In this document: positions 21,205 to 39,545 of the stretch, piece after piece
Numbering within the stretch: the first letter of the stretch is position 1
Layout of the letters: each line of letters starts with the position of its first letter
Assembly: GCA_001544655.2 (NCBI GenBank)
Contig: FCOD02000010.1
Span: 62,001 to 126,000 of the forward strand
Direction of reading: 5' to 3'
DNA length: 64,000 nt
DNA from: Caballeronia turbans
Lineage (GTDB): Bacteria; Pseudomonadota; Gammaproteobacteria; Burkholderiales; Burkholderiaceae
Notes under the pieces: model-generated
Databases searched by the model: none
The model's input: the letters and a program-made list of their open reading frames with translations, nothing else
Told to the model about the DNA's origin: nothing
Program-made: the position numbers and the translations under genes

Positions 21205-21266
21205 GGTTCGGATCTCCGGATTACGCTCGTGGCGCGCCGAAAATCCCGGCGCGATGTCATTATCTT

Positions 21267-21293
21267 CGAAAACAGACATCATGTCTATTTTCG
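21267..21293. promoter_or_regulatory. IclR operator candidate 1 (27-bp palindrome)
   Basis: Arms CGAAAACAGACAT (21267-21279) and ATGTCTATTTTCG (21281-21293) around a central C pair at 12 of 13 positions. It lies in the gap between the divergent CoA-transferase and IclR genes, 63 bases before the former. A 16-base block TCATGTCTATTTTCGC is repeated exactly at 23460-23475 in front of the MFS gene. The sharing links both promoters to one regulator, most simply the IclR protein encoded between them. Confidence 0.75.
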
Positions 21294-21418
21294 CTTCCGA
21301 CTTGCGGCGATGAGTTTCGCCGCGAAGCCGGCATCCATCGCCCTTGCGGCCCCCCTGCCTTACACGGCAAGATACGCGGCAACACACAGACAACGGCGCA
21401 ACCGACCGGAACACAGCA

Positions 21419-22174: not shown

Positions 22175-23410
22175 TCAGATGTTCTGCTGAATCGCGGGGC
22201 TCGTGCCGTCGGCTTCCGGCTCGCGGCCGTTTATGCGCGATTGCAGCGCCGCGAAGCAGCCCGCGCCGATGACGAGCGCCGAGATCATGAACAGGAAGCC
22301 ATTGTTGTACGAGCCGCTCGCCTTGACGAGATAACCCACGCCGAGCGGCGCGAGCAGCCCGCCTATCTGCCCGCCCGTATTGATGACGCCTGCGAACACG
22401 CCGCGCGCGCCTTGCGGCGCCAGTTGCGCGACCAGGCCCGCATACGGCGAGAGGCAGCCGTACAGCAGAAACGCCGCTGCCGAAAGGCCGATCACGCATG
22501 CGACGATATCATCCGCGCTGTACGCGAGATACAGTGCGAGCCCCGTGCAGACATAGCCCACGGCCACGAGCGTCGGCCGCCTGCGATGCAGCAGTCCGCT
22601 GCCGAGCCAGCCGAATACCACGATGCCGAGGAAGCCGAAAAGATAAGGCACCGACGCCGCGACGCCCAGCGATTTCAAATCGATATGCCGCTGGTTGGCG
22701 AGATACGAAGGGATCCAGCCGAGAAAGCCCCAGTAGCCGACGCTGAAGGTCATATAGCCGAAGAACAGCAGCCAGGTGCTCTTGCGCCCGGCGAACAGAC
22801 GCCATTGCTCGGCGCGGTTCGCCTTGTCGTGCGTCGTGCGTTCCTTCGCTTCGATTGCCTTACCCGGAATGATGAAGAGGATCAGCAGCGCGACGATCAC
22901 ACCCGGAACCGCGAACACGTAGAACACGTTGCGCCAGTCGCCGTTCATCAGCAGGCTTGTGACGACGGGCGCGACGACCGCCGGTCCGATCGCGAGCGCC
23001 GAGAGCCAGACGGCGTGCGCCTTGGCCGCGTCCTTGTGACTGAAGTTGTCCGCGACGGCCTTATAGACGGCCGCGTTGCACGATCCTTCGGCCAGGCCGA
23101 AACAGAAGCGCGCCGCGATCAGCACGGCCATCGACGTCGCGAGTCCCGTCATGCCGGTGAAAATCGAGAACAGGACCGGCGCCACGACCAAGAGCGCCTT
23201 GGTGCCGAACCGGTCCGCGAGGAAGCCGCCGGGCAACTGCATCAGCGCATAGCCGAGCGCGAAAGCGGCGAGCAGGACGCCGAACTGCGCGGCATCGAGA
23301 CGCAACGCTTTCATCATCGTCGGGCCGGCGACGGAAATGCTCACCCGATCCAGATAGTTCACGAACTGCAGCAGCCAGGTCAGCGCCAGCAACCGGTATC
23401 TCAGACTCAT
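22175..23410 (-). CDS. MFS organic-anion permease
   Basis: A 411-residue, 12-segment major facilitator protein. It has the ACS-like opening WLLQFVNYLDRVSISVAGP, the motif LADRFGTK after helix 2, and a central hydrophilic loop with EAKERTTHDK. The family carries sugar acids, dicarboxylates and aromatic acids by proton symport. It ends 21 bases from the convergent IclR gene, and its promoter carries the same operator block as the IclR/CoA-transferase gap. It is therefore the likely importer for the pathway encoded at 16226-21204. Confidence 0.88.
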   Translation of the reverse strand: MSLRYRLLALTWLLQFVNYLDRVSISVAGPTMMKALRLDAAQFGVLLAAFALGYALMQLPGGFLADRFGTKALLVVAPVLFSIFTGMTGLATSMAVLIAARFCFGLAEGSCNAAVYKAVADNFSHKDAAKAHAVWLSALAIGPAVVAPVVTSLLMNGDWRNVFYVFAVPGVIVALLILFIIPGKAIEAKERTTHDKANRAEQWRLFAGRKSTWLLFFGYMTFSVGYWGFLGWIPSYLANQRHIDLKSLGVAASVPYLFGFLGIVVFGWLGSGLLHRRRPTLVAVGYVCTGLALYLAYSADDIVACVIGLSAAAFLLYGCLSPYAGLVAQLAPQGARGVFAGVINTGGQIGGLLAPLGVGYLVKASGSYNNGFLFMISALVIGAGCFAALQSRINGREPEADGTSPAIQQNI

Positions 23411-23447
23411 CCTTGTCTCCTCGCTTCGTGCGAATGTCCCTGCGGCC

Positions 23448-23475
23448 GAAAAATAGAAATCATGTCTATTTTCGC
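23448..23475. promoter_or_regulatory. IclR operator candidate 2, in front of the MFS gene
   Basis: TCATGTCTATTTTCGC at 23460-23475 is identical to the block at 21279-21294. Its left arm, AAAATAGAAAT at 23450-23460, is a weaker match to the opposite half (one internal mismatch, two outer). The site lies about 38-64 bases upstream of the MFS start codon, a position suited to repression or activation of that promoter. Confidence 0.7.
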
Positions 23476-23783
23476 AACGGTAACGGACCGGCAGGGACTA
23501 CACAAGAAAAGGAAGGTCGGGGATTTCCCCTAGCGCGCCAAAACGCGGCGCGAAAATCGGCGTACGCCGATCCCACGCCGTCACCGCAGCGGAAGGTTTT
23601 GAAGGCACAGCGGCCGGAGTTCCGTTAGACGGCACCGGTGCAAAGCTAGACCGCGTCGAGCAATGCGCGCTTGAATCGTGATAAGAACGTCATGCAGGAC
23701 TATTGGCGCTACGACCACACTTCGGGTGAACCAGGCGCAATCGGAGACATCACGCATCTGCAACGCAATGCGCAACCAGAAAA
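23476..23783. other. Intergenic region, no gene seen
   Basis: About 310 bases between the MFS promoter and the SDR gene. Short open frames occur on both strands, without motifs or binding sites. It should contain the promoter of the SDR gene, which I cannot place with confidence. Confidence 0.45.
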
Positions 23784-24557
23784 ATGAACGAGACAATGAA
23801 ACTATTCAGCCTGCATGGCAGGCGGGCCCTGATCACCGGCTCCGGGCGCGGCATCGGCCTGGCGCTCGCACGGGGACTCGCGGGCGCCGGTGCTTCGATC
23901 GTGATAAACGATCGCAATGAGCAAAAAGCCGCCGATCTCGCCGCAGACCTGCGAGGCGAAGGCTTCGACGCCGGTTTCGCCGTGTTCGATGTGACCGACC
24001 GCGAGCAGGTCGTCGCGGCGATCGAACGTGTCGAGAAGACCATCGGCGCGATCGACATTCTGATCAACAATGCGGGCATCCAGCGCCGCGCGCCGCTCGA
24101 AAACTTCGACGAAGGCGACTGGAACGACCTGCTGCGCGTGAATCTCGACGGCGTATTCCAGGTCTCGCAGGCCGTCGCGCGGCACATGCTGGCGCGCGGG
24201 CGCGGCAAGATCATCAACATCGGGTCGGTGCAAAGCGAGCTGGCGCGACCGGGCATCGCGCCCTATGCAGCCACCAAAGGCGCCATTCGCATGCTGACCA
24301 AAGGCATGTGCGCGGAATGGGCGCGGCACGGCATTCAGGCCAATGCGATCGCGCCCGGCTATTTCGAGACCGATCTCAACCGCGCGCTCGTCGACGATCC
24401 GGCTTTCTCGGAGTGGCTCTGCAAGCGCACGCCCGCGGGCCGCTGGGGCCGCGTCGAGGAACTGTGCGGTGCGGCGGTGTTCCTCGCGTCGGCGGCGTCG
24501 GACTTCGTGAATGGGCAGACGCTTTTCGTCGATGGCGGATTGACCAGCGTGGTCTGA
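23784..24557 (+). CDS. SDR dehydrogenase, gluconate 5-dehydrogenase-like
   Basis: A 257-residue classical short-chain dehydrogenase. It has the cofactor motif TGSGRGIG (18-25), NNAG (with IQRRAP after it, frequent in gluconate 5-dehydrogenases), the catalytic Ser in NIGSVQSE, and YAATK. IdnO/GNO proteins interconvert 5-ketogluconate and gluconate with NADPH, but this group also oxidises other polyols and hydroxy acids. The first Met has no clear binding site; MKLFSLHG at 23796 is an alternative. It stands alone between the MFS promoter and a LysR gene, so its pathway is not clear from context. Confidence 0.8.
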   Translation: MNETMKLFSLHGRRALITGSGRGIGLALARGLAGAGASIVINDRNEQKAADLAADLRGEGFDAGFAVFDVTDREQVVAAIERVEKTIGAIDILINNAGIQRRAPLENFDEGDWNDLLRVNLDGVFQVSQAVARHMLARGRGKIINIGSVQSELARPGIAPYAATKGAIRMLTKGMCAEWARHGIQANAIAPGYFETDLNRALVDDPAFSEWLCKRTPAGRWGRVEELCGAAVFLASAASDFVNGQTLFVDGGLTSVV

Positions 24558-24751
24558 GCCGGTCGAGCCATGACCGTGTCCGACGACGTAGGAAATCGCG
24601 ATGCTCTCGATAGTCCCGAAGATATCGGCGATGTGTTCCAAGCTTGCGTTGATGCCGCTCGATCGGCGCCGGTTGACTTGCCACGGACTCCGTGACTATT
24701 CTCGTTTCACATGAAAGCGTCGCGGCAAAAGACCGCGCTCAGGAGACTCAG

Positions 24752-25663
24752 TTGCGTTTCGACCTACAATCGCTGAAGCTGTTCATCGCCGTCTGTGAGC
24801 ACGGCAGCATCGCGCGGGCAGCAGAATTCGAGAATATCGCCCCTTCGGCGCTCAGCAAGCGCATGTCCCAGCTTGAGGACATACTCAAGACCGCTCTGTT
24901 CGTGCGCAGCAACAAGGGCCTGGAACTGACAGTCGCGGCGGCAGCACTGCTGCAACACGCCCGGACGCTTCTGCGCGACATTCAACAGATGGAAAGCGAG
25001 CTGCTTGACCACGCCGAAGGCGTGCGTGGTCAGATCCGGCTGCACGCGAGCCTCTCGACCATCGTGCAGTACATTGCCAAAGATATCCGCGTTTTTCTGG
25101 ACCTGCATCCAGGTCTGCGGATCGACCTACAGGAAAGCCTGAGCCCTGCAGTGGTGCGCGCCGTGGCCGAAAACACTGCCGATATCGGCGTGTTCGGCGG
25201 CACCACCGTGACCGCTGGACTGCAGGTCTTTCCCTACCGCAGCGACCGGCTGGTCGTCATCATGCCGCCCGATCATCCACTCAGCCGTGCGGGCCGAGTG
25301 AGCTTCCGCGAGGTGGCCGAATACCCGCTCGTAGGACCTCAGGAAGGAAGCTATCTTAATTCGCTGGTGTTGCGCGCAGCGGCAGACCTCGACCACCCGC
25401 TTAAGCTCTCTATCCGGGTGAACGGCTTCGAGCCGGTGCGCAGCATGGTCGAGGCGCGGCTTGGCGTCGGGCTTGTACCCGAGCATCATGCTGAACGCTA
25501 CGTCAGCTCGGCGCCCTTGGTCGCCGTGCTGTTGGACGAGCCTTGGGCTGAGCGGCATTGGAAAATCTGTGTGCGCGAGGCGGAGTCGCTCCCCGCGCCC
25601 GTCCTGCTCTTTCTCAAGCATCTGCTAGCAAGTGCGCAGCAGCAAGCCGGAAATCACGAATAG
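24752..25663 (+). CDS. LysR-family regulator beside the leuCDB-like operon
   Basis: A LysR protein of 303 residues if started at the TTG at 24752, which has AGGAG six bases upstream. A GTG at 24692 would add 20 residues but lacks a site. The N-terminal helix-turn-helix spans FIAVCEHGSIARAAEF to SALSKRMSQLE, and the effector domain follows. Its last 10 bases overlap, tail to tail, the end of the SMP-30 gene that closes the long minus-strand operon. It is therefore a plausible but unproven regulator of that operon, whose promoter lies nearly 10 kb away. Confidence 0.87.
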   Translation: MRFDLQSLKLFIAVCEHGSIARAAEFENIAPSALSKRMSQLEDILKTALFVRSNKGLELTVAAAALLQHARTLLRDIQQMESELLDHAEGVRGQIRLHASLSTIVQYIAKDIRVFLDLHPGLRIDLQESLSPAVVRAVAENTADIGVFGGTTVTAGLQVFPYRSDRLVVIMPPDHPLSRAGRVSFREVAEYPLVGPQEGSYLNSLVLRAAADLDHPLKLSIRVNGFEPVRSMVEARLGVGLVPEHHAERYVSSAPLVAVLLDEPWAERHWKICVREAESLPAPVLLFLKHLLASAQQQAGNHE

Positions 25664-26577
25664 GCGAGCTTCAACCCCGCTTGCGGCCACGACAACGCAC
25701 CCAGACGTCCGGTGCCGGACATCGTGACATATGCTGTCTTCATGTCGGCGCCACCGAAGCATATGTTCGTCACCATGCCGTCCGGCACCGTGACTTGCCG
25801 CATCACCTCGCCAGACGGCGCGACCACGGTGATGCAGCCGGTGACCAACGTGGCCACGCAGATGTTCCCTTCCACATCCACTGCCAAACTATCGAATCGC
25901 TGGTAGCCGGCAAGCCCGCACACGAGACGCCCGCCGTGCGGGGATGGATACGGATGCTTGCGTGCCCTGCCCGGTGCCTCCAGGTCAAAAGCCCATAAGC
26001 GCGCCGTCTCGGTTTCCGCCACATAGACGGTACGGTCGTCCGGCGACAAGCCGACGCCGTTCGCCGTGGTAAGCGGATAAGCGACTTCGACAATCATCGA
26101 CCCATCGGCTCGCCCGTAATACAGGCCGGCGTGATCGCGATCACGCAGCCGGTTCTTGCCAAAATCGGTGAAATAAAAACCGCCTTCGTGGTCGAACACG
26201 ATGTCGTTGGGGCCGCACAGCGGATGATCGCCGCAGCGGTCGTAGAGCGTCGTGAGCGCACCCGTACGCGGGTCGAACCGTTCGATTCGACCGCTCGTAT
26301 AGCCTGGATGGATACCCGGCCGAGTGCGATTGAGCCCGGCGACGGTACGGAAAAGGAACCCCCCGTTATTGCAGATGTAAAAAGCACCATCCGGACCCAA
26401 GGCCAAACCGTTCGGCCCTCCGCCGATTTTCGCAAGGACGCTCACCGTACCGTCAACAGCTACGCGACTGATGGTCTCACGCTCGATTTCGACCAGCACG
26501 ACCGAGCCATCAGACATCGCCACGGGTCCCTCGGGAAACATCAAGCCTTCCGCGAGGATGCGGACGTCGCTCTCCAT
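25654..26577 (-). CDS. SMP-30/gluconolactonase-family lactonase
   Basis: A 307-residue six-bladed beta-propeller. The metal-binding Glu is in the N-terminal FPEGP; Asn and Asp ligands are in GPNDIVFD and FDSLAVD; repeats such as NGLALGPDGAFY and NGVGLSPDDRTVY mark the blades. Family enzymes hydrolyse sugar lactones (gluconolactone, xylonolactone) and other lactones with a divalent metal. The start at 26577 is chosen because AGGAG is 7 bases upstream; the ATG at 26583 would be too close. It is the last gene of the leuCDB-like/ABC operon, so it likely opens a lactone form of the imported compound. Confidence 0.84.
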   Translation of the reverse strand: MESDVRILAEGLMFPEGPVAMSDGSVVLVEIERETISRVAVDGTVSVLAKIGGGPNGLALGPDGAFYICNNGGFLFRTVAGLNRTRPGIHPGYTSGRIERFDPRTGALTTLYDRCGDHPLCGPNDIVFDHEGGFYFTDFGKNRLRDRDHAGLYYGRADGSMIVEVAYPLTTANGVGLSPDDRTVYVAETETARLWAFDLEAPGRARKHPYPSPHGGRLVCGLAGYQRFDSLAVDVEGNICVATLVTGCITVVAPSGEVMRQVTVPDGMVTNICFGGADMKTAYVTMSGTGRLGALSWPQAGLKLAYS

Positions 26578-26593
26578 GTTCATTCTCCTCAGT

Positions 26594-27619
26594 TCAGCGC
26601 TTGCCCGCATTCTCGACGAAATGGTTGTCGTACGTAGCCTTCAGGTCGATCGAAGCTTTGCCGATGTCGGGATCGAATGCGGTCAACACATCATGTACGG
26701 TATGCGCGGCAGCGTCGGTCATCAGGCCGTCGCGCGAAATGCAGCTTTGCATGTTGGCGTAGGCACGAGCGAAGACATCCTTCTCGGCGAGAGCATATTG
26801 CGGCGGTACGGCGGCGGCGACCTGCTCAGGCGTTGCATGCACCATCCAGCGCTCAGCCTCGAGGATGGCATTCGTTACCGCTTGCACGGTGTTCGGATAT
26901 TTGACGAGGAAGTCTTTGGTCGTGTAGATGGCAGCTTCCGGATAGTCGCCGCCCAGTGTCGCGCGCGTTCCGGCCGGGTCTCGCATCACAGCCAACGGAA
27001 ACAGATCGCCGCTGCCCTGCAGAACGGTAGCGACCGGGTCGTTGCTCATCAGTGCGTCGATCTGACCACTGCGCGCTGCAGCGATCGCCCCGGCAGAGGA
27101 GCCGACGCCAATGATCGATACGTCGCCGGGCTTTACGCCGGACTTGCTCAGCAGATAGTTCACGCCCATGTGAAAGCTCGATCCGGGCGAGCTCACGCCA
27201 ATGCGCATGCCCTTCAGATCCGCATAAGTCTTGATCCTGGCGTGGCTTGCGCGAGTCGCACCGAATACCCATCCGGGGCACGAGGCCAAGGTCACGAACG
27301 AGACCAGCTTCTGCCCTTTGGCGGCCATCGTTATCGTATTGGAGTAGGCCCCAGCCACTATGTCGGCACTACCGCCCATCATTGCCTGCAGCGCCTTGGC
27401 GCCTCCACTGAACACGCCGATTTCAACGTCTAGCCCGGCCTGTTTGAAGTATCCCCGACTGTCCGCGATGACGAACGGCAGGTAAGGAAAACCGACACCC
27501 GCCGCCGCCAGGTGGAGCCTGGGCTTTTCCGGCACAGGCGCGCCACTGGCGGCCGACGCATTCGAGACGGCGGCGAAGGTTGCCAATGCGATAGAAACTC
27601 GACGCCAAAGCGCTGTCAC
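26594..27619 (-). CDS. ABC importer substrate-binding protein 2 (SsuA/TauA/NMT1-like)
   Basis: A 341-residue secreted binding protein: basic N-terminus, hydrophobic stretch and an AxA-type cleavage region near residue 24, then the NMT1/SsuA two-lobe fold with YLPFVIADSRGYFKQAGLDV. It shares long blocks with the binding protein at 30967 (VAGAYSNTITMA, DLKGMRIGVS, DVSIIGVG), so they are paralogues within one operon. It has no permease of its own and probably shares the one at 29329. The family binds sulfonates, nitrate, pyrimidine precursors and carboxylates. Confidence 0.87.
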   Translation of the reverse strand: MTALWRRVSIALATFAAVSNASAASGAPVPEKPRLHLAAAGVGFPYLPFVIADSRGYFKQAGLDVEIGVFSGGAKALQAMMGGSADIVAGAYSNTITMAAKGQKLVSFVTLASCPGWVFGATRASHARIKTYADLKGMRIGVSSPGSSFHMGVNYLLSKSGVKPGDVSIIGVGSSAGAIAAARSGQIDALMSNDPVATVLQGSGDLFPLAVMRDPAGTRATLGGDYPEAAIYTTKDFLVKYPNTVQAVTNAILEAERWMVHATPEQVAAAVPPQYALAEKDVFARAYANMQSCISRDGLMTDAAAHTVHDVLTAFDPDIGKASIDLKATYDNHFVENAGKR

Positions 27620-27671
27620 GATGATATGTCTCCGTTGGAAATGTGTCTTGCGCGGCCGTGTCGTGAAGCGT

Positions 27672-28514
27672 TCAGCCTTGCACGACGTTCTGGCGCTGCT
27701 GCCCGAGGCCCTCGATGCCCAGCGTCACAACATCGCCCGGTTTCAGATAGACCGGAGGTTTTTGCCCCAGGCCGACTCCGGGAGGTGTGCCCGTGGAGAT
27801 AATGTCGCCCGGCTGCAATGACATGAACTGCGACAGGTACGACACCAGGTAGCGCACGCCATACACCATGGTGACCGTACTGCCGTTCTGATAGCGATGT
27901 CCGTTGACTTCCAGCCACATCGGCAGCGTCTGCGGGTCGCGCACCTCGTCCGCGGTTACGAGCCAGGGCCCCGTCGGACCGAACGTATCCGCCGACTTGC
28001 CCTTGGTCCATTGGCCCTGACGCTCCGCCTGAAACGCGCGCTCGGACACATCGTTGATGACGCAATAGCCCGCGACATGGTTCATGGCATCGGCTTCGCT
28101 GACGTACTTGGCTGTCTTCCCGATGACCACGCCCAATTCCACTTCCCAGTCGGTCTTGATCGAGTCGCGCGGAATCTCGATCGTGTCGTTCGGACCAACG
28201 ATCGCGCTCGTAGCCTTCATGAAAATGATAGGCTCCGGCGGGACCGTGGCACCGGTTTCTGCCGCGTGGTCAGAGTAGTTCAAGCCGATGCAGATAAACT
28301 TGCCCGTGCCACCCACGCAGGGCCCGAGGCGCGGACTGCCTTCTACGCGCGGTAACGACGCGGCATCGAGCGCCTTCAGGCGTGCAAGGCTATCGGGTAG
28401 CAGAGCTTCGCCGGCAATATCGGCAACATGGTTCGACAAGTCCCGAATATTTCCCTCGGCATCGAGAAGGCCCGGCTTCTCCTGGCCCGGTGAACCGTAG
28501 CGCAACAGCTTCAT
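27672..28514 (-). CDS. Fumarylacetoacetate hydrolase-family enzyme
   Basis: A 280-residue FAH-fold enzyme. The metal site is visible as a Glu in EPIIFMKATSAI, a Glu in DWEVELGVVIGK, and an Asp in GYCVINDVSERAFQ; the C-terminal TGTPPGVGLGQKPP is the usual substrate loop. The closest functional types are ureidoglycolate lyase-like and 2,4-dioxo-3-deoxy-L-fuconate hydrolase; others decarboxylate oxaloacetate or cleave acylpyruvates. It follows the SDR after 15 bases. In sugar-acid pathways such an SDR makes a 2,4-dioxo acid that the FAH enzyme then cleaves to pyruvate, and that is my inference here. Confidence 0.85.
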   Translation of the reverse strand: MKLLRYGSPGQEKPGLLDAEGNIRDLSNHVADIAGEALLPDSLARLKALDAASLPRVEGSPRLGPCVGGTGKFICIGLNYSDHAAETGATVPPEPIIFMKATSAIVGPNDTIEIPRDSIKTDWEVELGVVIGKTAKYVSEADAMNHVAGYCVINDVSERAFQAERQGQWTKGKSADTFGPTGPWLVTADEVRDPQTLPMWLEVNGHRYQNGSTVTMVYGVRYLVSYLSQFMSLQPGDIISTGTPPGVGLGQKPPVYLKPGDVVTLGIEGLGQQRQNVVQG

Positions 28515-28529
28515 ATGTGTATGCTCGCT

Positions 28530-29285
28530 TCAATAGGTGGCGCGTCCGCCAGACAGATCAAAAACCGCGCCAGTGGTAAAGGAGTTCTCTTCGCTCGCGA
28601 GCCAGGCGATCATGGCGGCGGCCTCATTGAGTTCGAGGAAACGGCCGCGCGGGATCTTGCCCAACATGTATTCGATATGCTCGGGCGCCTGCTCCATCGC
28701 GCCAGGTGTGCGCGCAACGGCAGGAGTGACGCAATTGACTGCTATGTCGTGACGCGCCAGCTCCTTTCCCAGCGACTTGGTCATTGCGATGACCGCGGCC
28801 TTGGCCGAGCTGTAGGCCGACGCATTCGGGTTACCTTCCTTGCCGGCGACCGAGGCGAGATTGACGATGCGGCCATAGTTCTGGCGGACCATCTCCGGGA
28901 CCACCGCACGGCAGCAGTGAAAGGTACCGTTGACGTCGATCTCCATCACCTGCTTCCAGATATCGATCGGATACTCGATCAGAGGCGCATTCGGGCCAAC
29001 AATCGCCGCGTTGTTGATCAGGATATCGATACGTCCCGCGGATTTCATCGTTCCCGCGACAGCCGCTTGCACGCTCGCGAAGTCGGCAATGTCGACGCAC
29101 TCGAAGTGAACGTCGTGCTGACTCAGCTGGGTACGGGCCTGCTCGATGCCGGCAGGATTGACGTCCCAGATCACGAGCCGGGCACCCGATTCGAGCAGCC
29201 GGCGGCCGACTTCCAGACCGATGCCTTGCGCGCCGCCGGTCACGACGGCGACGCGGCCCGTCAGATTGATTTTGTTGGTCTGCAA
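28530..29285 (-). CDS. SDR dehydrogenase in the leuCDB-like operon
   Basis: A 251-residue classical SDR with the cofactor motif GGAQGIG, NNAAIVGPNAP, the catalytic Ser in NLASVAGKEGNP, and YSSAK. The start is an unusual TTG at 29285, supported by GAGGA seven bases upstream; no ATG gives the N-terminal beta strand. It resembles 2-keto-3-deoxy-L-fuconate and other sugar-acid dehydrogenases. It lies between the permease and the FAH gene. Together the pair could oxidise a hydroxy-oxo acid and cleave the product. Confidence 0.85.
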   Translation of the reverse strand: MQTNKINLTGRVAVVTGGAQGIGLEVGRRLLESGARLVIWDVNPAGIEQARTQLSQHDVHFECVDIADFASVQAAVAGTMKSAGRIDILINNAAIVGPNAPLIEYPIDIWKQVMEIDVNGTFHCCRAVVPEMVRQNYGRIVNLASVAGKEGNPNASAYSSAKAAVIAMTKSLGKELARHDIAVNCVTPAVARTPGAMEQAPEHIEYMLGKIPRGRFLELNEAAAMIAWLASEENSFTTGAVFDLSGGRATY

Positions 29286-29328
29286 TTTAGTTCCTCAAGG
29301 TTGAATCACGCATCCCATGCACTCGCGC

Positions 29329-30135
29329 TCAGGCGCTAGCGGCCACCGTCTGCCCGGCCACGGGGCGCCAGCGCAGCAGATAGTCTTCGATCATCGATAC
29401 CGCTGTATCGAGCACGAGAGCGAACACGGTGAGCACGAGGATCCCCGCGATGACCGAATTGATATCGAACACGCCTTCGGCCAGCAGAATCAGGTAGCCA
29501 ACGCCTTTCTCCGAGCCCAGATACTCGCCCACCACGCTGCCGACGAAGGCGATGCCGATCGCGTTATGCAGGCTCGAAAACACCCAGCTCGTCGCCGATG
29601 GCAAATACACGTGCCTCATCAGTTGACGCGAGTTGGCGCCTAGCATCCGGGTGTTCGACAACACTGTCGGGCTCACCTCGCGGACACCCTGAAACACGTT
29701 GAAGAAGACCACGAAGAAGACAAGCGTTACGCCCAACGCTACTTTCGACCAGATGCCCAGTCCGAACCAAAGCGCGAAAATGGGCGCAAAGATCAATCGC
29801 GGCATCGAGTTCATTGCTTTGATGAACGGATCGAACACGACGGCCAGAAACGGGCTAAGGGCAAGCCAAAGGCCGCATCCCAATCCCAGGACCGTGCCGA
29901 TTGCGAACGCAAGCATGGTCTCGAGCAGGGTCGTGTACAAATGGCGGAAGACCGAGCCCGTCACGAACCACTCGACGATGCGACGAGCCACACCTACAGG
30001 GTCTCCGAAGAAGAACGGGGACAGCCACTTCTGATAGGTGCCAAGCCACCAGAGGAACAGGACACCGATCAAAATTGCCAGCCGCGTCACCAGAACGGTG
30101 AAACGATTGTTTGGACTAAACTCGATTGCGCGCAT
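29329..30135 (-). CDS. ABC importer permease (SsuC/TauC type)
   Basis: A 268-residue inner-membrane protein with about six hydrophobic helices and the cytoplasmic EAA-type loop NTRMLGANSRQLMRHVYLP that docks the ATPase. Its first 20 bases overlap the end of the ATPase gene, showing translational coupling. It should form a homodimer. As the only permease in the operon it must serve both binding proteins. Confidence 0.9.
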   Translation of the reverse strand: MRAIEFSPNNRFTVLVTRLAILIGVLFLWWLGTYQKWLSPFFFGDPVGVARRIVEWFVTGSVFRHLYTTLLETMLAFAIGTVLGLGCGLWLALSPFLAVVFDPFIKAMNSMPRLIFAPIFALWFGLGIWSKVALGVTLVFFVVFFNVFQGVREVSPTVLSNTRMLGANSRQLMRHVYLPSATSWVFSSLHNAIGIAFVGSVVGEYLGSEKGVGYLILLAEGVFDINSVIAGILVLTVFALVLDTAVSMIEDYLLRWRPVAGQTVAASA

Positions 30136-30970
30136 AGCTTTTCAGAACCTCGCCTCGAAGCACGTCCCAAATCTGGGTGTGCAGTTGAAGGAAACGCTGC
30201 GTCATCCGGATCTCCGACATTTCGCGCGGCCGCTCCAGATCGATCTCGAACTCGGCGATGGGTCGCGTACCGGGTCCCGCCGACAGCACGATGACCCGGT
30301 CGGAAAGCGAGATAGCCTCTTCCAAATCGTGAGTCACGAACATCACGGACTTGCGATCGCGTGACCACAGTTGCAACAGCTCGTTTTCCATCAGGTGGCG
30401 GGTCTGGATATCGAGCGCGCTGAATGGTTCGTCCATCAGAATGATGCGCGGATTGAGCGCCAGGGCTTGCGCCAAACCGGCCCGCTTGCGCATGCCGCCG
30501 GACAGCTGATGGGGGTATTTCTTCCCATGACCTTGCAGCCCCACTCGCTCGAGCCAGCCACGGGCGACACCCAAGGCTTCTTCGCGCGGCATTCCGCGAA
30601 ATATCAAGCCGATCGCAATGTTCTCTTCGGCCGTCTTCCACGGCATGAGCGCATCCACCTGAAACAGGTAGGCGGCCTGTGTATTGAGACCCTGGGTCAG
30701 CTTCTTGCCGAACACGCTCAGGCTGCCCGACGAAGGCCGGGTGAGCCCGGCCGCCACGTTCAGCAGTGTCGACTTGCCGCAACCCGTGGGGCCGACAATC
30801 GAGACGAACTCTCCGTCCCTTATCGTCAAACTGCCGCCAGAAACTGCGGTGTAGGTCTGGGCATGCTTGCCATTGCCGGCAAAGGTGCAGGTCACGTTGT
30901 CGAAGCGTAACGCTTCACGCACTTCTGCCTGTCCGCTGTCGAGCGGGATGCTACATGCTGCGGTGCTCAT
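30116..30970 (-). CDS. ABC importer ATPase (SsuB/TauB type)
   Basis: A 284-residue ABC ATPase with Walker A GPTGCGKST, Q-loop YLFQVDALMPWKT, signature LSGGMRKRAGLAQ and Walker B IILMDEPFSALD, followed by the switch His in FVTHDLEEA. The QVDALMPWK loop and the overall size fit the nitrate/sulfonate/taurine group. The signature has M-R-K-R where Q-Q-R is common. Its start codon overlaps the stop of the upstream binding-protein gene by four bases. Confidence 0.92.
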   Translation of the reverse strand: MSTAACSIPLDSGQAEVREALRFDNVTCTFAGNGKHAQTYTAVSGGSLTIRDGEFVSIVGPTGCGKSTLLNVAAGLTRPSSGSLSVFGKKLTQGLNTQAAYLFQVDALMPWKTAEENIAIGLIFRGMPREEALGVARGWLERVGLQGHGKKYPHQLSGGMRKRAGLAQALALNPRIILMDEPFSALDIQTRHLMENELLQLWSRDRKSVMFVTHDLEEAISLSDRVIVLSAGPGTRPIAEFEIDLERPREMSEIRMTQRFLQLHTQIWDVLRGEVLKSYARNRV

Positions 30971-31992
30971 GGCTGGACCTCCGCCGCCTTTCTGACGAAC
31001 CGATTGTCATAGGTCGTGGCGAGGTCGATTTTGGCCGACGCTACCGCAGGGTCGAAGGCTGCAAGCACCTCATGCACCGTCTGCGCGCCTTTGGGGGTGA
31101 TCTCCCCGTTCTGCGCGATGCAGCGGCGGCTATTCGTGAAGGCCTCGGCATAGAGCGCCTTGTTCTCGCCCAAAAACTGCGGCGGCACGTTGTCTGCGAC
31201 TTGCTGCGGCGTGGCCTTGGCTATCCACTTTTCCGCGCGCACGATTGCATTGGCGACTGCCTGGACCGTCTTGGGATTCTTGTCGATGAAGTCCTGCGTC
31301 GCGAATACGCTCGACTCGGGATAGTCGGAGCCGAACACCTTCACGTTGCCGTCCGCCGTACGCATGTTCTCGAGCGGTCTCAGGCTGCCATCCTTCGTCA
31401 GAATCGTGGCACTCGGGTCATTGACGATGAGCGCATCGATCTGACCCGCACGCACCGCTGCAACGGCACCGGCCGCCTGCCCCACGCCGATGATCGACAC
31501 GTCCGAAGGCTGCAGCCCCGCCTTGTGCAAGATGTAGTTGACCGCCATGTGCGTGCTGGAGCCTGGCGCGCTCACGCCGATTCGCATGCCCTTCAAATCC
31601 TTGGGCGACTTGACGTCTGTCTCGTGTTTCTGAGACACGCCAAAGATCCAGCCCGGGCAAATCACTTGTGCGGCCACCACGACGAGGTGCTGACCCTTCG
31701 TCGCCATGGTGATCGTGTTCGAATAGGCGCCCGCCACCATATCGGAGCTGCCGCCCAACAAGGCCTCCAGCGTCTTTGAACCTCCGGAAAATGCCGCGAT
31801 GGTTACGTCGAGCCCTTCGTCCTTGAAGTAGCCGCGCTGCTTGGCAACGAGCATGGGCAGGTATGTGATGCCAGTCGACGCCGCTGCAATGTGCAACTCG
31901 GGCTTCTCCGGCGTGTCCTTCGCCACTGCCGTGGCTGATGCGCAAGCGAGTTCCACGGCTGCGCACAATGCAACAGCGAATTTCAGCTTCAT
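30967..31992 (-). CDS. ABC importer substrate-binding protein 1 (SsuA/TauA/NMT1-like)
   Basis: A 341-residue secreted binding protein. The start at 31992 is set by GGAGGAG six bases upstream and gives a good signal peptide (MKLKFAVALCAAVELACASA, cleavage near ATAVAKD). The mature part begins KPELHIAAAS and contains YLPMLVAKQRGYFKDEGLDV and the blocks shared with its paralogue at 26594. It is coupled to the ATPase gene by a 4-base overlap, so it is the core binding protein of the importer. Confidence 0.89.
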   Translation of the reverse strand: MKLKFAVALCAAVELACASATAVAKDTPEKPELHIAAASTGITYLPMLVAKQRGYFKDEGLDVTIAAFSGGSKTLEALLGGSSDMVAGAYSNTITMATKGQHLVVVAAQVICPGWIFGVSQKHETDVKSPKDLKGMRIGVSAPGSSTHMAVNYILHKAGLQPSDVSIIGVGQAAGAVAAVRAGQIDALIVNDPSATILTKDGSLRPLENMRTADGNVKVFGSDYPESSVFATQDFIDKNPKTVQAVANAIVRAEKWIAKATPQQVADNVPPQFLGENKALYAEAFTNSRRCIAQNGEITPKGAQTVHEVLAAFDPAVASAKIDLATTYDNRFVRKAAEVQP

Positions 31993-32101
31993 GGTTGTCT
32001 CCTCCCTTTCTAGGGATGTTGGTGCGAACAACTGCCCTGGACGGACTGGCACTTCGTGACCGTGACGCCGAGATGGCAGCCAGCCCAAGGCGCGATCCGC
32101 C

Positions 32102-33172
32102 CTAAACGACTTCTTTTCGCAAGGCTTCGACCACTGCGTCACCCATGTCACGGGTGCCGACGCTTCGGGTGCCCTCTTGGTAGATGTCGGCGGTGCGGTA
32201 GCCGGCGGACAGCACTGTTCGCACGGCCTGTTCGACGCGGCCCGCAGCATCCTCCATCTCGAAGCTCTCGCGCAGCATCATCGCAAGCGACAAGATGGCG
32301 GCAAGCGGATTAGCGATGTCCTTGCCGGCAATATCCGGCGCCGAGCCGTGCACCGGCTCGTACAGCCCTTTGCGGTCGTACCCTAGCGAAGCCGAGGGCA
32401 GCATGCCGATCGATCCGGTCAACATGGCCGCAGCGTCCGACAGAATGTCGCCGAACAGATTGCCCGTAACGATCACATCGAACTGCTTGGGCCGGCGCAT
32501 CAGCATCATGGCAGCGGCGTCCACGAAGAGATGGCTCAGTTCGACGTCCGGGTAGTCTCGCCCGACGCGCGTGACAGTTTCGCGCCACAACTGACTCGCC
32601 TCCAGCACGTTGGCCTTGTCCACCGAGCACAGCTTGTGGTGACGGCGACGCGCGGCTCGAAAAGCCGCGTGCGCGACGCGTTCAACCTCCGACTCGGAAT
32701 AACGCATCGTGTTGAAACCCACGCGCTCGCCTGCTTCGTTGGTTTCGAAGCCGCGCGGCTGACCGAAATAAGCGTCGCCATTCAGCTCACGAACGATCAC
32801 GATGTCCAGTCCGTCGACGACTTCCGGCCGCAGAGTGGAAGCGCCAATCAGTTCCGGGAACATATAGGCCGGACGGAAGTTCGCGTACAGTGTGAGCGCT
32901 TCGCGCAGTTGCAACAGACCGGTTCCGGGACGACGCGCGCGAGGAATGTCCGCCTCATCGGCTACGCCCACCGCACCAAAAAGGATGGCGTCAGCCTTGC
33001 GCGCCACGTCGAGCGTGGGCTCCGGAAGCGGCACGCCGTGCGCCTGGATTCCGGCCTCGCCGATGTGCGCCTCTTGAGTCTCGGCATGAGGTGCCACGAC
33101 TTGCAGCACCTTGAGAGCCTGCGCCACTACTTCGGGACCGATACCATCACCGGGCATGACTGCAATCTTCAT
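32102..33172 (-). CDS. Isopropylmalate-dehydrogenase-like beta-decarboxylating dehydrogenase (LeuB paralogue)
   Basis: A 356-residue protein of the IPMDH/isocitrate/tartrate dehydrogenase family: [10 protein letters not shown] at the start, [14 protein letters not shown], the catalytic Lys in [12 protein letters not shown], the Asp-rich metal site [12 protein letters not shown], and the NAD-binding [12 protein letters not shown]. The substrate-recognition region departs from leucine-pathway LeuB: where GGPKWD is usual there is [13 protein letters not shown]. The family oxidises a 3-substituted malate and loses CO2. With the LeuC/LeuD-like genes upstream it would process an isomerised 2-hydroxy diacid. 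It lies 37 bases after leuD-like. Confidence 0.87.
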
Positions 33173-33209
33173 CTGAACTCCTCCAGGGTCGTTTTAGAAA
33201 GCGCGCGCC

Positions 33210-33806
33210 TCAATATGCGTCGGCGCGATTGCGCTCGAATGCATCAATGCGATCTCGATGCGAAAGCGTGTAATCGATCTCGTCCATGCCACGCAGCAGG
33301 CATTGCTTGGCGAAGGGCTCCATCTCGAAAGCATGCGAGGCGCCGTCGGGTAACGTCACACTCTGTGCGGGCACGTCAATGGAGATTCGGCTACCCGCCT
33401 TCGTGGTCAGGTATTCCAGAAGCGGAAGAACCACGGTCTCCGGCAGCACGATGGGAAGCAGCCCGTTCTTCAGGCAGTTGATGAAGAAGATATCGCCGAA
33501 GCTCGGGGCAATCACCGCCCGGATGCCGTAGTCGTACAGCGCCCAGACAGCGTGCTCACGCGAAGATCCGCAACCGAAGTTGTGGTTCGCCACCACGATG
33601 CGCGACTCGCGAAACGACGCCTGGTTGAGCACGAACTCAGGCTTTTCGGTGCCGTCCGGGCCAAAGCGCAGCGCACGAAAGAGAAACTGGCCGAAATCGT
33701 CGGAGCGAGGTTTTTGCAGGAAGCGCGCCGGCAGAATCTGGTCCGTATCGCAATTGATGACGACGATCGGGGCTGCGACTGCGTCGAGGTGAGTCAGGCT
33801 TTCCAT
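33210..33806 (-). CDS. LeuD-like aconitase-family small subunit
   Basis: A 198-residue swivel domain of the bacterial LeuD length: NCDTDQILPARFL near the start, NFGCGSSREHAVWAL (substrate loop), and a C-terminal GMDEIDYTLSH, the usual end of LeuD proteins. The start at 33806 has GGGAG six bases upstream; an in-frame ATG at 33833 would lie inside the large-subunit gene. The start overlaps the large subunit's end region, so the two are coupled. It differs in class from the short small subunit at 17082. Confidence 0.9.
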   Translation of the reverse strand: MESLTHLDAVAAPIVVINCDTDQILPARFLQKPRSDDFGQFLFRALRFGPDGTEKPEFVLNQASFRESRIVVANHNFGCGSSREHAVWALYDYGIRAVIAPSFGDIFFINCLKNGLLPIVLPETVVLPLLEYLTTKAGSRISIDVPAQSVTLPDGASHAFEMEPFAKQCLLRGMDEIDYTLSHRDRIDAFERNRADAY

Positions 33807-33807
33807 C

Positions 33808-35238
33808 TCATGCTCCCAAGAGGCGGCGCACATCAGTCAGACGTCCCGTTACGGCAGCGGCAGCCGCCATAGCTGGACTCATCAGATGCGTGCGCACGCC
33901 CGGCCCTTGACGGCCCACGAAATTGCGATTCGAAGTGGAGGCGCAACGCTGCCCAGGCGCGGCAATATCGCCGTTGGTTGCAAGGCACATCGAACAGCCC
34001 GGGAAACGCCACTGGAAGCCGGCTTCCTTGAACACGCGGTCCAGTCCTTCGGCCTCGGCTTGCGCTCGTACCTCATGCGAGCCCGGCACCACCCATGCCT
34101 CGACGCCAGATGCGACATGGCGGCCCCGCGCGACCTCGGCCGCGCTGCGCATATCCTCGATGCGCCCGTTCGTGCACGAACCGATGAAGACCCGGTCGAT
34201 CGCAACGCCTTCCAGCGCCTCGTTCGGGGCTAATCCCATGTAGTCGAGCGCCGTCGACATGGCAGCGCGCAGATCGGGGTCCGCCTGCAGCGCGGGATCG
34301 GGAACACGCCGGTCGATGGCGCAGGCATATTCGGGTGTTGTGCCCCAGGTCACCATCGGGGCGATCCCGGCGACGTCGATATGCACCTCCCGGTCGAACG
34401 TTGCATCGGGGTCGGTGAACAAGGTGCGCCAGTGCGCCATCGCGCGGTCCCACTCTTCGCCCTTCGGCGCGAAGGGACGACCGGCCAGATACGCGAAGGT
34501 GGTGTCGTCTGGCGCGATCATGCCGGCGCGACCGCCGGCCTCGATGCTCATGTTGCAGAGCGTCAGCCGAGCTTCCACCGAGAGACCGGCGATCGCGGAG
34601 CCCCTGTACTCGATGACATGCCCCACGGCGCCAGCCACGCCGATGCGCGCGATGACGGCGAGGATCAGGTCCTTGGCGGTGACACCCGGGCCCGGCGTGC
34701 CGTCGAAGGTGACGCGCATGTTGCTCGACTTGCGTTGCCACAGGCATTGCGTGGCGAGCACATGAGCCACCTCGGTTGCGCCGATACCGAACGCGAGCGC
34801 GCCCATCGCCCCGTGTGTCGACGTGTGACTGTCGGCGCAGACGACGGTCATGCCAGGCAAACTCAACCCCTGCTCGGGCCCGACCACGTGAACGATGCCG
34901 CGACGCGAATCGTCCATGTCGAACAAGGTGATGTTCGACGCGGCTGCGTCACGCTGCAGGGCCACGATCATGGCGCGCCGCTCGGGGTCGGTCACCGCCG
35001 ACATGTCGTTTGCCGCGCTGGAAACGTAGTGGTCCGCCGTACCGAAGATTCGCTCAGGCGACCGTGGCTTGAGCCCGCGCTCGCGCAACAGATCGAAGGA
35101 TTGCGCGGTGACGTCATGAATAAAATGCCGATCGATGAACAGCAGGTCCTGCCCGTCGTCGCGCGACATCACCCGGTGACTATTCCAGATCTTGTCGTAA
35201 AGAGTCTGTGGACCGCCCACCCCTTGTTCGAGTTGCAT
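33808..35238 (-). CDS. LeuC-like aconitase-family large Fe-S subunit
   Basis: A 476-residue protein of the bacterial LeuC class: [25 protein letters not shown], the signature [20 protein letters not shown], and Fe-S ligands in FIGSCTNGR and FPGCSMCLA, with [11 protein letters not shown]. It is first in the ten-gene operon. The N-terminal third (for example [13 protein letters not shown]) departs from the leucine enzyme, where a TMDHN motif is normal. I infer a paralogue isomerising another 2-hydroxy diacid; biosynthetic LeuC remains possible but the ABC/FAH/lactonase company argues for catabolism. Confidence 0.88.
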
Positions 35239-35514: not shown

Positions 35515-36732
35515 TCACCGAAGCGCATCTTCCACCAGCTCGATCCAGTGCCGCACGCCGGTACGCCCCGCGCCCGCGAGATGCGTCTGGCACCCGATAT
35601 TCGCCGTGACGATCATTTCAGGCGCTTCGCTTTCGAGCGCGTCCATCTTGCGCTCGCGCAGTTGCGTCGATAGCGCCGGCTGCGTGATCGAATACGTTCC
35701 GGCCGAGCCGCAGCACAGATGCGCATCGGGCACGGCGGTCAGGTCGTAGCCGAGGCGTGTCAGGATCGACTCCACTGCGCCGCCGAGTTTCTGCGCGTGC
35801 TGGAGCGTGCAAGGACAATGAAACGCGATGCGCTTACGGTCGGTGGGTCTGAGCGCGTCGAGCGGCTCCTTGCGCATCACTTCGACGAGATCGAGCGCGA
35901 GTTCACTGACGCGCGCGGCTTTCGCCGCATACGTCGGATCGCCCCGCAACAAATGGCCGTATTCCTTCACGAACGCCCCGCAACCGCTCGCGGTCTGCAC
36001 GATCGCTTCCGCACCCGCTTCGATGGCGGGCCACCATGCGTCGATGTTGCGCCGCGCGCGCATCAGACCTGCCTCCTGTGCGTTCAGGTGATAGTCGGTC
36101 GCGCCACAGCAGCCGGCCTGCGGCGCACCGATCACGCTGATCCCGAGCCGATCCAGCACGCGCGCGGCCGCTGCGTTCGTATTCGGCGACAGCGACGGCT
36201 GCACGCATCCCTCCAGCATGAGCACACGACGCGCATGCCGCGCGCCCGGCCGCACCTTGGCCGCGGTCGCGCGTGCAGGAATCTTTTGTCGCAAAGCGCT
36301 CGGCAGGACGGGACGCGCGAGACGGCCAGCCTTCAGCAAGGTATCGAACACGGCAGGACGCGTAATCGCGTGACGCAATCCGTTGCGCAGCAAGCGTTCG
36401 CCGGCGGGCCGCTGAACGCGACGCTCCAGTTCCCCGCGGCCGATGTCGAGCAGCGCGTGATAGGTGACGCCCGAAGGACACGTGGTTTCGCAATTGCGGC
36501 ACGTCAGGCAGCGGTCGAGATGCAGCTGCGTCTTCTGCGTGACCGGCTCGCCTTCCAGCATCTGCTTGATGAGATAGATGCGCCCGCGCGGACCATCGAG
36601 TTCATTACCCAACAACTGATAGGTCGGGCAGGTGGCATTGCAGAACCCGCAATGGACGCACGAACGCAGAATGTCTTCCGCTTCCTTCGCGCGCGCGAGC
36701 GTCTTCGCTTCGTCGCTGAGATTCGTTTGCAT
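35515..36732 (-). CDS. glcF: Glycolate oxidase iron-sulfur subunit
   Basis: A 405-residue protein with two [4Fe-4S] ferredoxin motifs: Cys25, 28, 31 and 35 in CVHCGFCNATCP and Cys76, 79, 82 and 86 in CLTCRNCETTCP. Two CCG-type cysteine-rich domains follow (GCCGATDYH and CCGSAGTYSI). GlcF carries electrons from the flavin subunits GlcD and GlcE to the respiratory chain during oxidation of glycolate to glyoxylate. It is the last gene of glcDEF, 21 bases after glcE. Confidence 0.95.
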   Translation of the reverse strand: MQTNLSDEAKTLARAKEAEDILRSCVHCGFCNATCPTYQLLGNELDGPRGRIYLIKQMLEGEPVTQKTQLHLDRCLTCRNCETTCPSGVTYHALLDIGRGELERRVQRPAGERLLRNGLRHAITRPAVFDTLLKAGRLARPVLPSALRQKIPARATAAKVRPGARHARRVLMLEGCVQPSLSPNTNAAAARVLDRLGISVIGAPQAGCCGATDYHLNAQEAGLMRARRNIDAWWPAIEAGAEAIVQTASGCGAFVKEYGHLLRGDPTYAAKAARVSELALDLVEVMRKEPLDALRPTDRKRIAFHCPCTLQHAQKLGGAVESILTRLGYDLTAVPDAHLCCGSAGTYSITQPALSTQLRERKMDALESEAPEMIVTANIGCQTHLAGAGRTGVRHWIELVEDALR

Positions 36733-36753
36733 GGCTTGTGCGTGTCGATGGCG

Positions 36754-37821
36754 TCAGTAGTCGGCGTACATCCGGCCCGGATTGAACACACGGTGCGGAT
36801 CGAGGCGTTGCTTCAGTTGCGTATGAAAGCGCATCAGCGCTGCGGGGATCGGCTGGAACGGCTCGGGCGTCACGCCCGGAACGAAACACGTCGCATGGCC
36901 GGCCGCCGCACTCGCAATACCTCGAATGACGTCCGCGCTCGCTTCGCTCTTGAGCCAGCGTTGCGCGCCCCCCCAGTCGATGATGGCGTCGCCGGGCAGC
37001 GCGGCGAGCGGCGTTGCATTCGGCAAGGACAGGCGCCAGAGCGGACGATCATCCTCGAAGAAGGCGAGACGATGTTCGCGAAGGGATGTCCAGAAATCGT
37101 CATCCAGATGCTCTCCACCGATGCGATCCGCCGCGGCGCGCACCGAACCCGCGCCGCCTTCGAGGCGAACGTGCAGCCGGCCATCGACATGACAGGCGCC
37201 GCTCACGGGCAATGCCGCCTTTCGCCAGGAAGAAAGCTCACGCATTGCTTCGGAGGCTTCCAGTGCGAGCGAGAGACAGCGCGTTTCACGCGGCTTGGGC
37301 AGAACCTTCATCGATACTTCGGTGATCAGCCCGAGACAGCCGAAGCTGCCGCTCATCAAACGCGACACGTCGTAACCCGCGACGTTCTTCATCACCTGCC
37401 CGCCGAAGCGCAGATGCCTGCCTTCGCCGGTAACGATGCGGCATCCCAGAACGAAATCGCGCACCGAACCCGCCCACGGACGGCGCGGACCCGACAGACC
37501 CGCTGCGACCACGCCGCCTATCGTCGCCGCTTCGCCGAACGTCGGCGGCTCGCACGGAAGCATCTGGCCGGCTTCGTCGAGGATCGCGTTCATTTCGGCG
37601 AGCGGTGTGCCTGCGCGCGCGGTGATCACGAGTTCGCTCGGGTCGTAGCTGACGATGCCGCGATGCGAGCGCGTGTCGATCTCTTCGCCTTGCACCTGCG
37701 TGCCGAGGAATGCCTTGCTGTCGCCGCCGCGAATGCGCAACGGCTGGCGGCGTGCGATCGCGCACTGCACCTGATCGACGAGACGCGCGCTGTCGTCGAT
37801 GGAAATGAGGTCGCGTCGCAT
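36754..37821 (-). CDS. glcE: Glycolate oxidase FAD-binding subunit
   Basis: A 355-residue FAD_binding_4 protein, related to GlcD but shorter: PLRIRGGDSKAFLG, TARAGTPLAEMNAILDE, GGVVAAGLSGPRRPWAGSVR and GGQVMKNVAGYDVSRLM all belong to the flavin-binding half. The start at 37821 overlaps the glcD stop by one base (TGATG), showing coupling. An open frame continuing to 38064 lies inside glcD and is not used. It is needed with GlcD and GlcF for glycolate dehydrogenase activity. Confidence 0.93.
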   Translation of the reverse strand: MRRDLISIDDSARLVDQVQCAIARRQPLRIRGGDSKAFLGTQVQGEEIDTRSHRGIVSYDPSELVITARAGTPLAEMNAILDEAGQMLPCEPPTFGEAATIGGVVAAGLSGPRRPWAGSVRDFVLGCRIVTGEGRHLRFGGQVMKNVAGYDVSRLMSGSFGCLGLITEVSMKVLPKPRETRCLSLALEASEAMRELSSWRKAALPVSGACHVDGRLHVRLEGGAGSVRAAADRIGGEHLDDDFWTSLREHRLAFFEDDRPLWRLSLPNATPLAALPGDAIIDWGGAQRWLKSEASADVIRGIASAAAGHATCFVPGVTPEPFQPIPAALMRFHTQLKQRLDPHRVFNPGRMYADY

Positions 37822-39320: not shown

Positions 39321-39411
39321 GCGGTGTCTCCGGTGGGGCGAGGGCCCGTTCCAATGTGTGCTTTTTTCTGCGATTTTTCCGGTTCGAGCCAGTCATGTCG
39401 ATGGTTTTTGC

Positions 39412-39426
39412 ACTGGTAATACCAGT
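39412..39426. promoter_or_regulatory. GlcC-type operator, copy 1
   Basis: ACTGGT-AAT-ACCAGT (39412-39426) is a perfect inverted repeat with 6-base arms. It matches the TNGTNNNACNA core recognised by FadR-subfamily GntR regulators. It lies 92 bases upstream of glcD. A second copy with the same core is at 39523. Confidence 0.75.
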
Positions 39427-39522
39427 TTTTAAAGCGACTTGACCGGTCCGAAAAGTTCCAGATGCAATGCCGAAGCGCGCCACGGTTCCATCCAATGCTT
39501 GAGGGCGTGCTACGATCGAAAG

Positions 39523-39535: not shown

Positions 39536-39545
39536 TGATCGAGCC

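Follow-up and report, generated by a model that had tools for sequence, protein, structure and literature searches.

Organization of the ten-gene unit

The window analysed here is a stretch of 64,000 nucleotides of DNA from the soil bacterium Caballeronia turbans (contig FCOD02000010.1, positions 62,001 to 126,000). The genome is 7.35 Mb in size, and the window belongs to its contig 51. At 25654–35238 it holds ten genes, all on the minus strand and in the order LeuC, LeuD, LeuB, SBP1, ATPase, permease, SDR, FAH, SBP2 and SMP-30 (Table 1). A trio resembling the isomerase and dehydrogenase of leucine biosynthesis is thus joined to an ABC importer with two substrate-binding proteins (SBP1 and SBP2), a short-chain dehydrogenase/reductase (SDR), an FAH-family hydrolase and an SMP-30-family protein. 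An earlier note, made from the sequence of the stretch, had described ten co-directional genes of these families; all ten are present, and Pfam and NCBIfam profiles, read against curated cut-offs or gathering scores, agree on them, the trio matching Aconitase (LeuC), Aconitase_C (LeuD) and Iso_dh (LeuB).

Neighbouring genes are separated by short gaps or overlap, several of them overlapping or almost touching, which is compatible with a single transcript. A scan for promoters and terminators gave nothing beyond chance level. A divergent LysR-family gene, absent from the earlier list, adjoins the unit in all 13 loci in which we found the whole unit (see below) and may control it. Three gene starts are probably better placed downstream of those in the open reading frame list: that of LeuD at about 33806, that of SBP1 at 31992, with AAGGGAGGAGA upstream of that ATG, and that of SMP-30 at about 26577. 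All ten genes are kept by purifying selection, the ratio of non-synonymous to synonymous substitution (dN/dS) being 0.016–0.186 across 30 gene comparisons (ten genes, three relatives), with dS within about 2-fold in each comparison.

Table 1. Genes of the unit and its adjoining regulator, in window coordinates
Product	Coordinates	Strand	Remarks
LeuC-like isomerase large subunit, 476 aa	33808..35238	-	CxxC and SCTNG intact; CLATN in place of CLAMN
LeuD-like isomerase small subunit, 198 aa once trimmed	33210..33806	-	Start in open reading frame list 33833; PKQF changed to PARF
LeuB-like beta-decarboxylating dehydrogenase, 356 aa	32102..33172	-	Catalytic residues intact; Gly83 at the position of Glu88 (1A05 numbering)
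SBP1, SsuA/NMT1-type substrate-binding protein, 341 aa	30967..31992	-	Start in open reading frame list (32250) too early
ABC transporter ATPase, 284 aa	30116..30970	-	ABC_tran
ABC transporter permease, 268 aa	29329..30135	-	BPD_transp_1
SDR dehydrogenase, 251 aa	28530..29285	-	TTG start; adh_short
FAH-family hydrolase, 280 aa	27672..28514	-	FAA_hydrolase; His83 and Glu86 are the published catalytic pair
SBP2, SsuA/NMT1-type substrate-binding protein, 341 aa	26594..27619	-	56% identity to SBP1
SMP-30 family, probable lactonase	25654..26577	-	SGL; start in open reading frame list 26610, likely start Met12
LysR-family regulator	24692..25663	+	Divergent; conserved beside the unit

The trio is separate from the leucine genes

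Contig 99 of the same genome carries a set of leuC, leuD and leuB, to which the window proteins show 55–56% identity (LeuC) and 63–64% identity (LeuB). The window trio is therefore not simply the leucine pathway, and we reject that reading. The earlier note had asked whether a separate biosynthetic leuCDB exists and had held that the window genes are not the leucine pathway and are probably catabolic; the contig 99 set answers the question and supports the claim. Other contigs of this genome encode three weaker LeuB relatives, which have Trp at position 88 and are of the tartrate type.

All three window proteins nonetheless exceed the cut-offs of the leucine families: LeuC scores 660.6 bits on TIGR00170 (cut-off 560.25), LeuD 198.6 bits on TIGR00171 (116.25) and LeuB 466 bits on TIGR00169, 3-isopropylmalate dehydrogenase (353.2). 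These scores would suit a spare biosynthetic set, for leucine or for the 2-oxo acid chain elongation in which the same chemistry is described (PMC8468904). We consider this very unlikely, given that an importer, a lactonase-family gene and a C–C hydrolase accompany the trio, that the isopropylmalate-synthase-type family is not among the ten genes and that a leucine set lies elsewhere.

Altered residues and phylogeny of the trio

To place these proteins we compared 19 distinct loci chosen for carrying the trio clade, the window included, with 'trio' and 'biosynthetic' labels given from identity and context. Among the 17 active-site residues listed for isopropylmalate dehydrogenase 1A05 (PMC2796266), Glu88 alone is changed in every trio LeuB row (19/19). 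It is Gly in 18 rows and Arg in one (locus G017), versus Glu in 37/37 biosynthetic rows, made up of 16 rows of the alignment and 21 added as the top-scoring rows of a family search, with no random draw. Five of the 40 rows in the alignment were set apart, three of the tartrate type (Trp) and two alphaproteobacterial (Glu). The replacement of Glu88 by Gly is the sole active-site change in the 13 close trio rows, and is accompanied by Val73 to Ala in the five middle rows. Arg95, Arg105, Arg133, Tyr140, Lys190, Asp222, Asp246 and Asp250 are unchanged in 19/19 rows; Leu91, Leu92 and Val193 are also retained, Leu91 in all 19, so that the Asn of isocitrate-type enzymes is absent.

The isomerase subunits carry fixed changes of their own. 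Met421 of LeuC, directly after CxxC, is Thr in 19/19 trio rows versus Met in 41/41 biosynthetic rows. Lys36 of LeuD is Ala in 19/19 versus Lys in 36/36, and the adjacent Gln37 is Arg in 18/19 versus Gln in 35/36. At a threshold of at least 85%, 14 positions in LeuC and 7 in LeuD separate the two groups; rows belonging to neither (18/78 for LeuC, 13/68 for LeuD) were excluded from the residue counts. In the LeuB tree all 19 trio rows form one clade (support 100/97) next to the biosynthetic LeuB of the same genome; the tree carries a long-branch warning that includes the G017 row, whose placement is flagged as unsure.

Copies of three leucine-making enzymes have apparently been altered at the substrate pocket and re-specialised for the catabolism of a branched hydroxy acid or its lactone. 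Judged from sequence, loss of Glu88 would open the side-chain pocket of LeuB. In the models of PMC2796266, Leu91 and Val193 distinguish isocitrate from isopropylmalate enzymes, Glu88 and Val193 distinguish tartrate from isopropylmalate enzymes, and isocitrate enzymes, whose gamma-substituent is charged, favour Asn at position 91. Because the trio LeuB keeps Leu91, Leu92 and Val193 and lacks Asn91, a charged side chain is by this rule less likely for its substrate than an alkyl, hydroxyalkyl or arylalkyl one. Isocitrate lactone, which had been named as a candidate, loses likelihood for the same residues. Two assignments are rejected: an isocitrate-type side chain by the missing Asn91, and a tartrate/D-malate-type LeuB by Gly or Arg, and never Trp, at position 88.

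Distribution of the unit across genomes

LeuC was used as query in a survey of 150 genomes of the family. Among the matches listed, at least six genomes, the window's own included, have LeuC at 87% identity or more and at least four further ones have it at 63–67%, the other listed matches being at or below 59%. Three plasmid records with an 87.8% LeuC (H3–H5) were left out of the 19 loci. The whole unit is found in 13 of these 19 loci and parts of it in the other six; gene by gene, SDR is present in 16, ATPase together with permease in 15, and FAH (at 60% or more) and SMP-30 in 14 each.

One of the 13, from Paraburkholderia sp. UYCP14C (L075, 15981–17900), has the whole unit minus FAH, SBP2 following directly after SDR. 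In Trinickia soli the unit is present but a major facilitator superfamily (MFS) gene replaces SBP1. Paraburkholderia PREW-6R (G095) has the trio, an MFS gene and SDR, and a Caulobacteraceae metagenome-assembled genome combines the trio with SDR and has LysR, MFS, FAH and another SDR at a distance of 3–8 kb; SDR thus stays by the trio in reduced versions. The MFS proteins of these two are 70% identical, so that the link of MFS with trio and SDR spans classes. G047 has the trio, the other unit genes being missing within about 8 kb. In Variovorax VAI-C the trio lies behind a tctC-type binding protein, with a 39% FAH 7 kb upstream and a 60.7% SMP-30 about 27 kb away. In G017 the trio genes follow another order and are accompanied by ABC genes, by binding proteins of 44 and 51% identity and by a pair of amidohydrolase-family genes (L059, 13294–17513). 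One of this pair matches L-fuconolactonase at 77 bits (cut-off 400); it is a possible replacement for SMP-30.

Searches of whole genomes at E 1e-60 found SMP-30 in the 5/5 searched genomes whose locus has it and none in those of G047, G095, G017 and the Caulobacteraceae. All four of the latter genomes have an FAH relative of 61–74%, which in the Caulobacteraceae genome is the copy near the trio. Relatives of SDR occur elsewhere in the genomes of G047 (51–52%) and G095 (51%), and none was found elsewhere in that of G017 at the same threshold.

The flanks of the unit differ among loci, and plasmids carry at least two complete copies of it; it therefore seems to travel, or to be inserted, en bloc. 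Its recurrence with differing flanks, together with the low dN/dS, argues that the gene set is not a chance association.

SMP-30, SDR, FAH and importer

The SMP-30 protein scores 168.3 bits on the SGL domain (Pfam gathering score 26.3) and is a probable lactonase. Its nearest solved relatives are 8djf and 7ris (346 and 345 bits), the latter of which we take to be a Rhodopseudomonas palustris lactonase studied with gamma-valerolactone. Six further relatives on plasmids have as neighbours CoA-transferases, a muconolactone-isomerase-like gene, hydrolases and tctC or branched-chain-type importers, and in one of the six contexts a glucokinase gene is nearby. This company suggests that this branch of SMP-30 serves organic acids.

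SDR has Ser145, Tyr158 and Lys162, which we take to be the motif of its family; its best solved relatives (9jve, 9kq1 and 6d9y) are annotated merely as SDR proteins. The best solved relative of FAH is L-2,4-diketo-3-deoxyrhamnonate hydrolase (8gsr, 334.7 bits; next 202), and its His83 and Glu86 stand at numbers called catalytic in PMC6336799. The two genes are adjacent in the unit, and a paralogous SDR/FAH pair lies on contig 30 of the genome, in whose flanks no sugar pathway is evident. In Route III of sugar-acid degradation, an SDR 4-dehydrogenase acts just before the 2,4-diketo-3-deoxy acid hydrolase (PMC6336799). By adjacency and by analogy with this order, SDR would act upstream of FAH as a dehydrogenase.

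SBP1 and SBP2 both fall below the cut-off of the SsuA-type family TIGR01728 (115.7 and 91.6 bits; cut-off 163.5). These two paralogous NMT1-type binding proteins share one permease and one ATPase, and the four together may bring in an organic acid or its lactone.

Proposed pathway and its alternatives

We propose, at somewhat less than an even chance, that the unit is a catabolic operon in which the re-specialised leucine trio takes part in degrading the lactone of a 2-(1-hydroxyalkyl)malate, with pyruvate and an acid as products, in the order SMP-30, LeuCD, LeuB, SDR and FAH. SMP-30 would open the gamma-lactone to the 2-(1-hydroxyalkyl)malate, a 2-substituted malate with a hydroxyl at position 1 of its side chain. 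LeuCD would shift the tertiary hydroxyl, yielding the 3-substituted malate, which LeuB would oxidize with NAD and decarboxylate to a 4-hydroxy-2-oxo acid. SDR would then oxidize the 4-hydroxyl, and FAH would hydrolyse the resulting 2,4-dioxo acid to pyruvate and a carboxylic acid. The overall products would be carbon dioxide, NADH, pyruvate and a short acid, with one job for each enzyme, and the side chain might be H, methyl, hydroxyalkyl or aryl.

This order comes from chemical reasoning. By Pfam, none of the ten genes encodes a sugar-acid dehydratase, which leaves LeuB as the sole evident source of a 2-oxo acid. Since LeuB would make the 2-oxo acid and SDR would need a 4-hydroxyl, the substrate of LeuCD would be a 2-(1-hydroxyalkyl)malate, and such a compound forms a five-membered lactone through its 1-hydroxyl, giving a place for the lactonase. 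Import, lactone opening, isomerisation, oxidative decarboxylation and cleavage, the route of the earlier note, still make up what we consider the best reading; SDR had no place in that route and now stands beside FAH.

Several observations weigh against our proposal. FAH scores 429.8 bits on NF053535, 2,4-didehydro-3-deoxy-L-rhamnonate hydrolase, under a cut-off of 500. None of 15 further FAH loci (69–81% identity) has a match to leuB, leuC or leuD (0/15); an 80% relative lies inside an L-fucose cluster, and an 87.5% relative has an aldolase gene and a sugar kinase gene as neighbours. Because FAH relatives are common without the trio and in varied contexts, the likeness of FAH leaves the substrate unfixed. 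The six plasmid relatives of SMP-30 (54–63%) likewise lie in varied contexts, with no trio within the flank. In the accounts drawn on here, characterised 4-dehydrogenases and FAH hydrolases take polyhydroxy acids, while the LeuB pocket looks apolar, and L-2-keto-3-deoxyfuconate dehydrogenase requires the C5 hydroxyl. Finally, a nearby SMP-30 is missing in 5/19 trio loci, SDR in 3 and a close FAH in 5; the G047 trio has no other unit gene beside it and L075 does without FAH.

In G047, and in Variovorax VAI-C downstream of a tctC-type binding protein, the trio stands with none of the remaining unit genes next to it; this would also suit a separable alkylmalate module and with it a reversed order of reactions. 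Lactonase, SDR and FAH would then act first on a longer lactone acid, FAH freeing pyruvate and a simpler 2-alkylmalate that LeuCD and LeuB finish. Both orders are chemically possible. We nevertheless regard the reversed one as unlikely: G095 has SDR with the trio yet neither SMP-30 at E 1e-60 nor an adjacent FAH, L075 keeps the trio without FAH, both of which suit FAH as a last, replaceable step, and a small alkyl side chain gives no obvious need for the loss of Glu88.

Two particular substrates can be set against the general class. 2-Hydroxyparaconate and its open form itatartarate, fungal derivatives of itaconate, have the needed layout and would end as formate and pyruvate. According to PMC9875883, Pseudomonas PA0880 encodes a lactonase that opens 2-hydroxyparaconate, the tested Pseudomonas strains use neither compound as a carbon source, and an aconitase-like dehydration of itatartarate is speculated on. 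We judge this substrate improbable, as its primary-alcohol side chain would oblige SDR to make an aldehyde, while characterised relatives oxidize secondary alcohols, and as the known 2-hydroxyparaconate lactonase, at 127 aa (PMC9875883), is far smaller than SMP-30.

The second is the lactone of hydroxycitric acid. Its degradation would yield oxalate and pyruvate, and we take this lactone (hibiscus or garcinia acid) to have the same carbon layout plus a side-chain carboxyl. It is an extremely improbable substrate, given the preference of isocitrate enzymes for Asn91 (PMC2796266) and the Leu at this position in 19/19 trio rows.

Neighbouring genes and other LeuCD-type clusters

The glycolate oxidase genes glcF, glcE and glcD with a divergent glcC (35515–40310) begin 276 bases upstream of leuC. 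Cleavage of the Route III type can yield glycolate (PMC6336799). We rejected the glc genes as members of the unit: GlcD, GlcE and GlcF have no match at E 1e-15 in those loci of relatives that we compared, and GlcC has matches of just 28–32%. The SDR and MFS genes at 22175–24557 were also rejected, no close match being found beyond LysR in the relatives, where the flank is short (0 to about 7 kb).

Elsewhere in the window, 16226–21522 (minus strand) encodes a PrpB-like lyase, a LeuD/DmdB-type small subunit, a LeuC/HacA-type large subunit, a 361-aa open reading frame and a class III CoA-transferase. Clusters on Azospirillum plasmids pair a PrpB-like protein 60–61% identical to the window's with a LeuC 62–63% identical to that of the unit. 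Another LeuCD type occurs at three loci (L060, L061 and L062, from C. concitans, G017 and G095), with LeuC at 53–55%, LeuD at 40–43% and the motif CVGAN; ABC genes lie beside it, and PrpB-like lyases in two of the three. An AidB-type N-acyl homoserine lactonase-like protein is encoded at 9567–10535 (minus strand; 132.8 bits, under the cut-off of 360).

Comparison with known systems

It is quite possible, if a little short of probable, that the unit represents an undescribed pathway in which branched hydroxy-acid lactones pass through a jointly re-specialised LeuC, LeuD and LeuB and enter the deoxy-sugar-acid pathway at its SDR/FAH end, free of coenzyme A (CoA). In the paper listings and passages that we covered in the open-licence part of PubMed Central, we found neither the combination of SDR and FAH with a leuCDB-type trio nor a CoA-free bacterial route for 2-substituted malates or their lactones. 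If the proposal is true, some of the genes now annotated leuC, leuD or leuB have no part in leucine synthesis, and LeuB Gly88, LeuC CLATN or CLGTN and LeuD PARF or PARY would be marks that help to distinguish the clade. Bacteria would have a CoA-free way of degrading 2-substituted malates and the corresponding lactones, by which a branched carbon skeleton is taken to pyruvate and a short acid, and the unit would be a source of new enzymes that make or break hydroxy-acid lactones.

The enzyme families are already known. New in this analysis are the single supported clade that unites the 19 LeuB rows of the trio and the fixed changes in all three proteins. With the leuCDB of leucine biosynthesis the window trio shares its families, the catalytic residues of LeuB and the passing of the family cut-offs; it differs at LeuB Glu88, LeuC Met421 and LeuD Lys36, and in the company of importer, SDR, FAH and SMP-30. 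The clusters of LeuCD with a PrpB-like lyase (Azospirillum plasmids; window 16226–19024) also have LeuCD-type proteins outside a leucine operon, but there the lyase, not LeuB, is next to LeuCD, and the motifs differ from those of the unit.

The genes for 2-hydroxyparaconate and itaconate in Pseudomonas (PMC9875883) resemble the proposed pathway in the lactone of a 2-(hydroxyalkyl)malate and in the speculated aconitase-like step. Their 127-aa lactonase is of another kind, and leuCDB-type genes are not named in the passages of that paper that we draw on. The importer has the NMT1-type binding proteins, single permease and single ATPase of SsuA/TauA-type systems, and differs from them in that both binding proteins fall under the SsuA cut-off and that two paralogues serve one permease.

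A parallel to the last two proposed steps is the non-phosphorylative Route III, described for L-rhamnose, L-fucose and pentoses (PMC6336799, PMC11199699), the end of which SDR and FAH would resemble. The unit shares with it an SDR beside an FAH hydrolase that belongs to the same family and has the His/Glu pair, and a lactonase-family gene. Route III as such is rejected for want of a dehydratase among the ten genes; whereas that route has a sugar-acid dehydratase, in the window unit LeuB would supply the 2-oxo acid.

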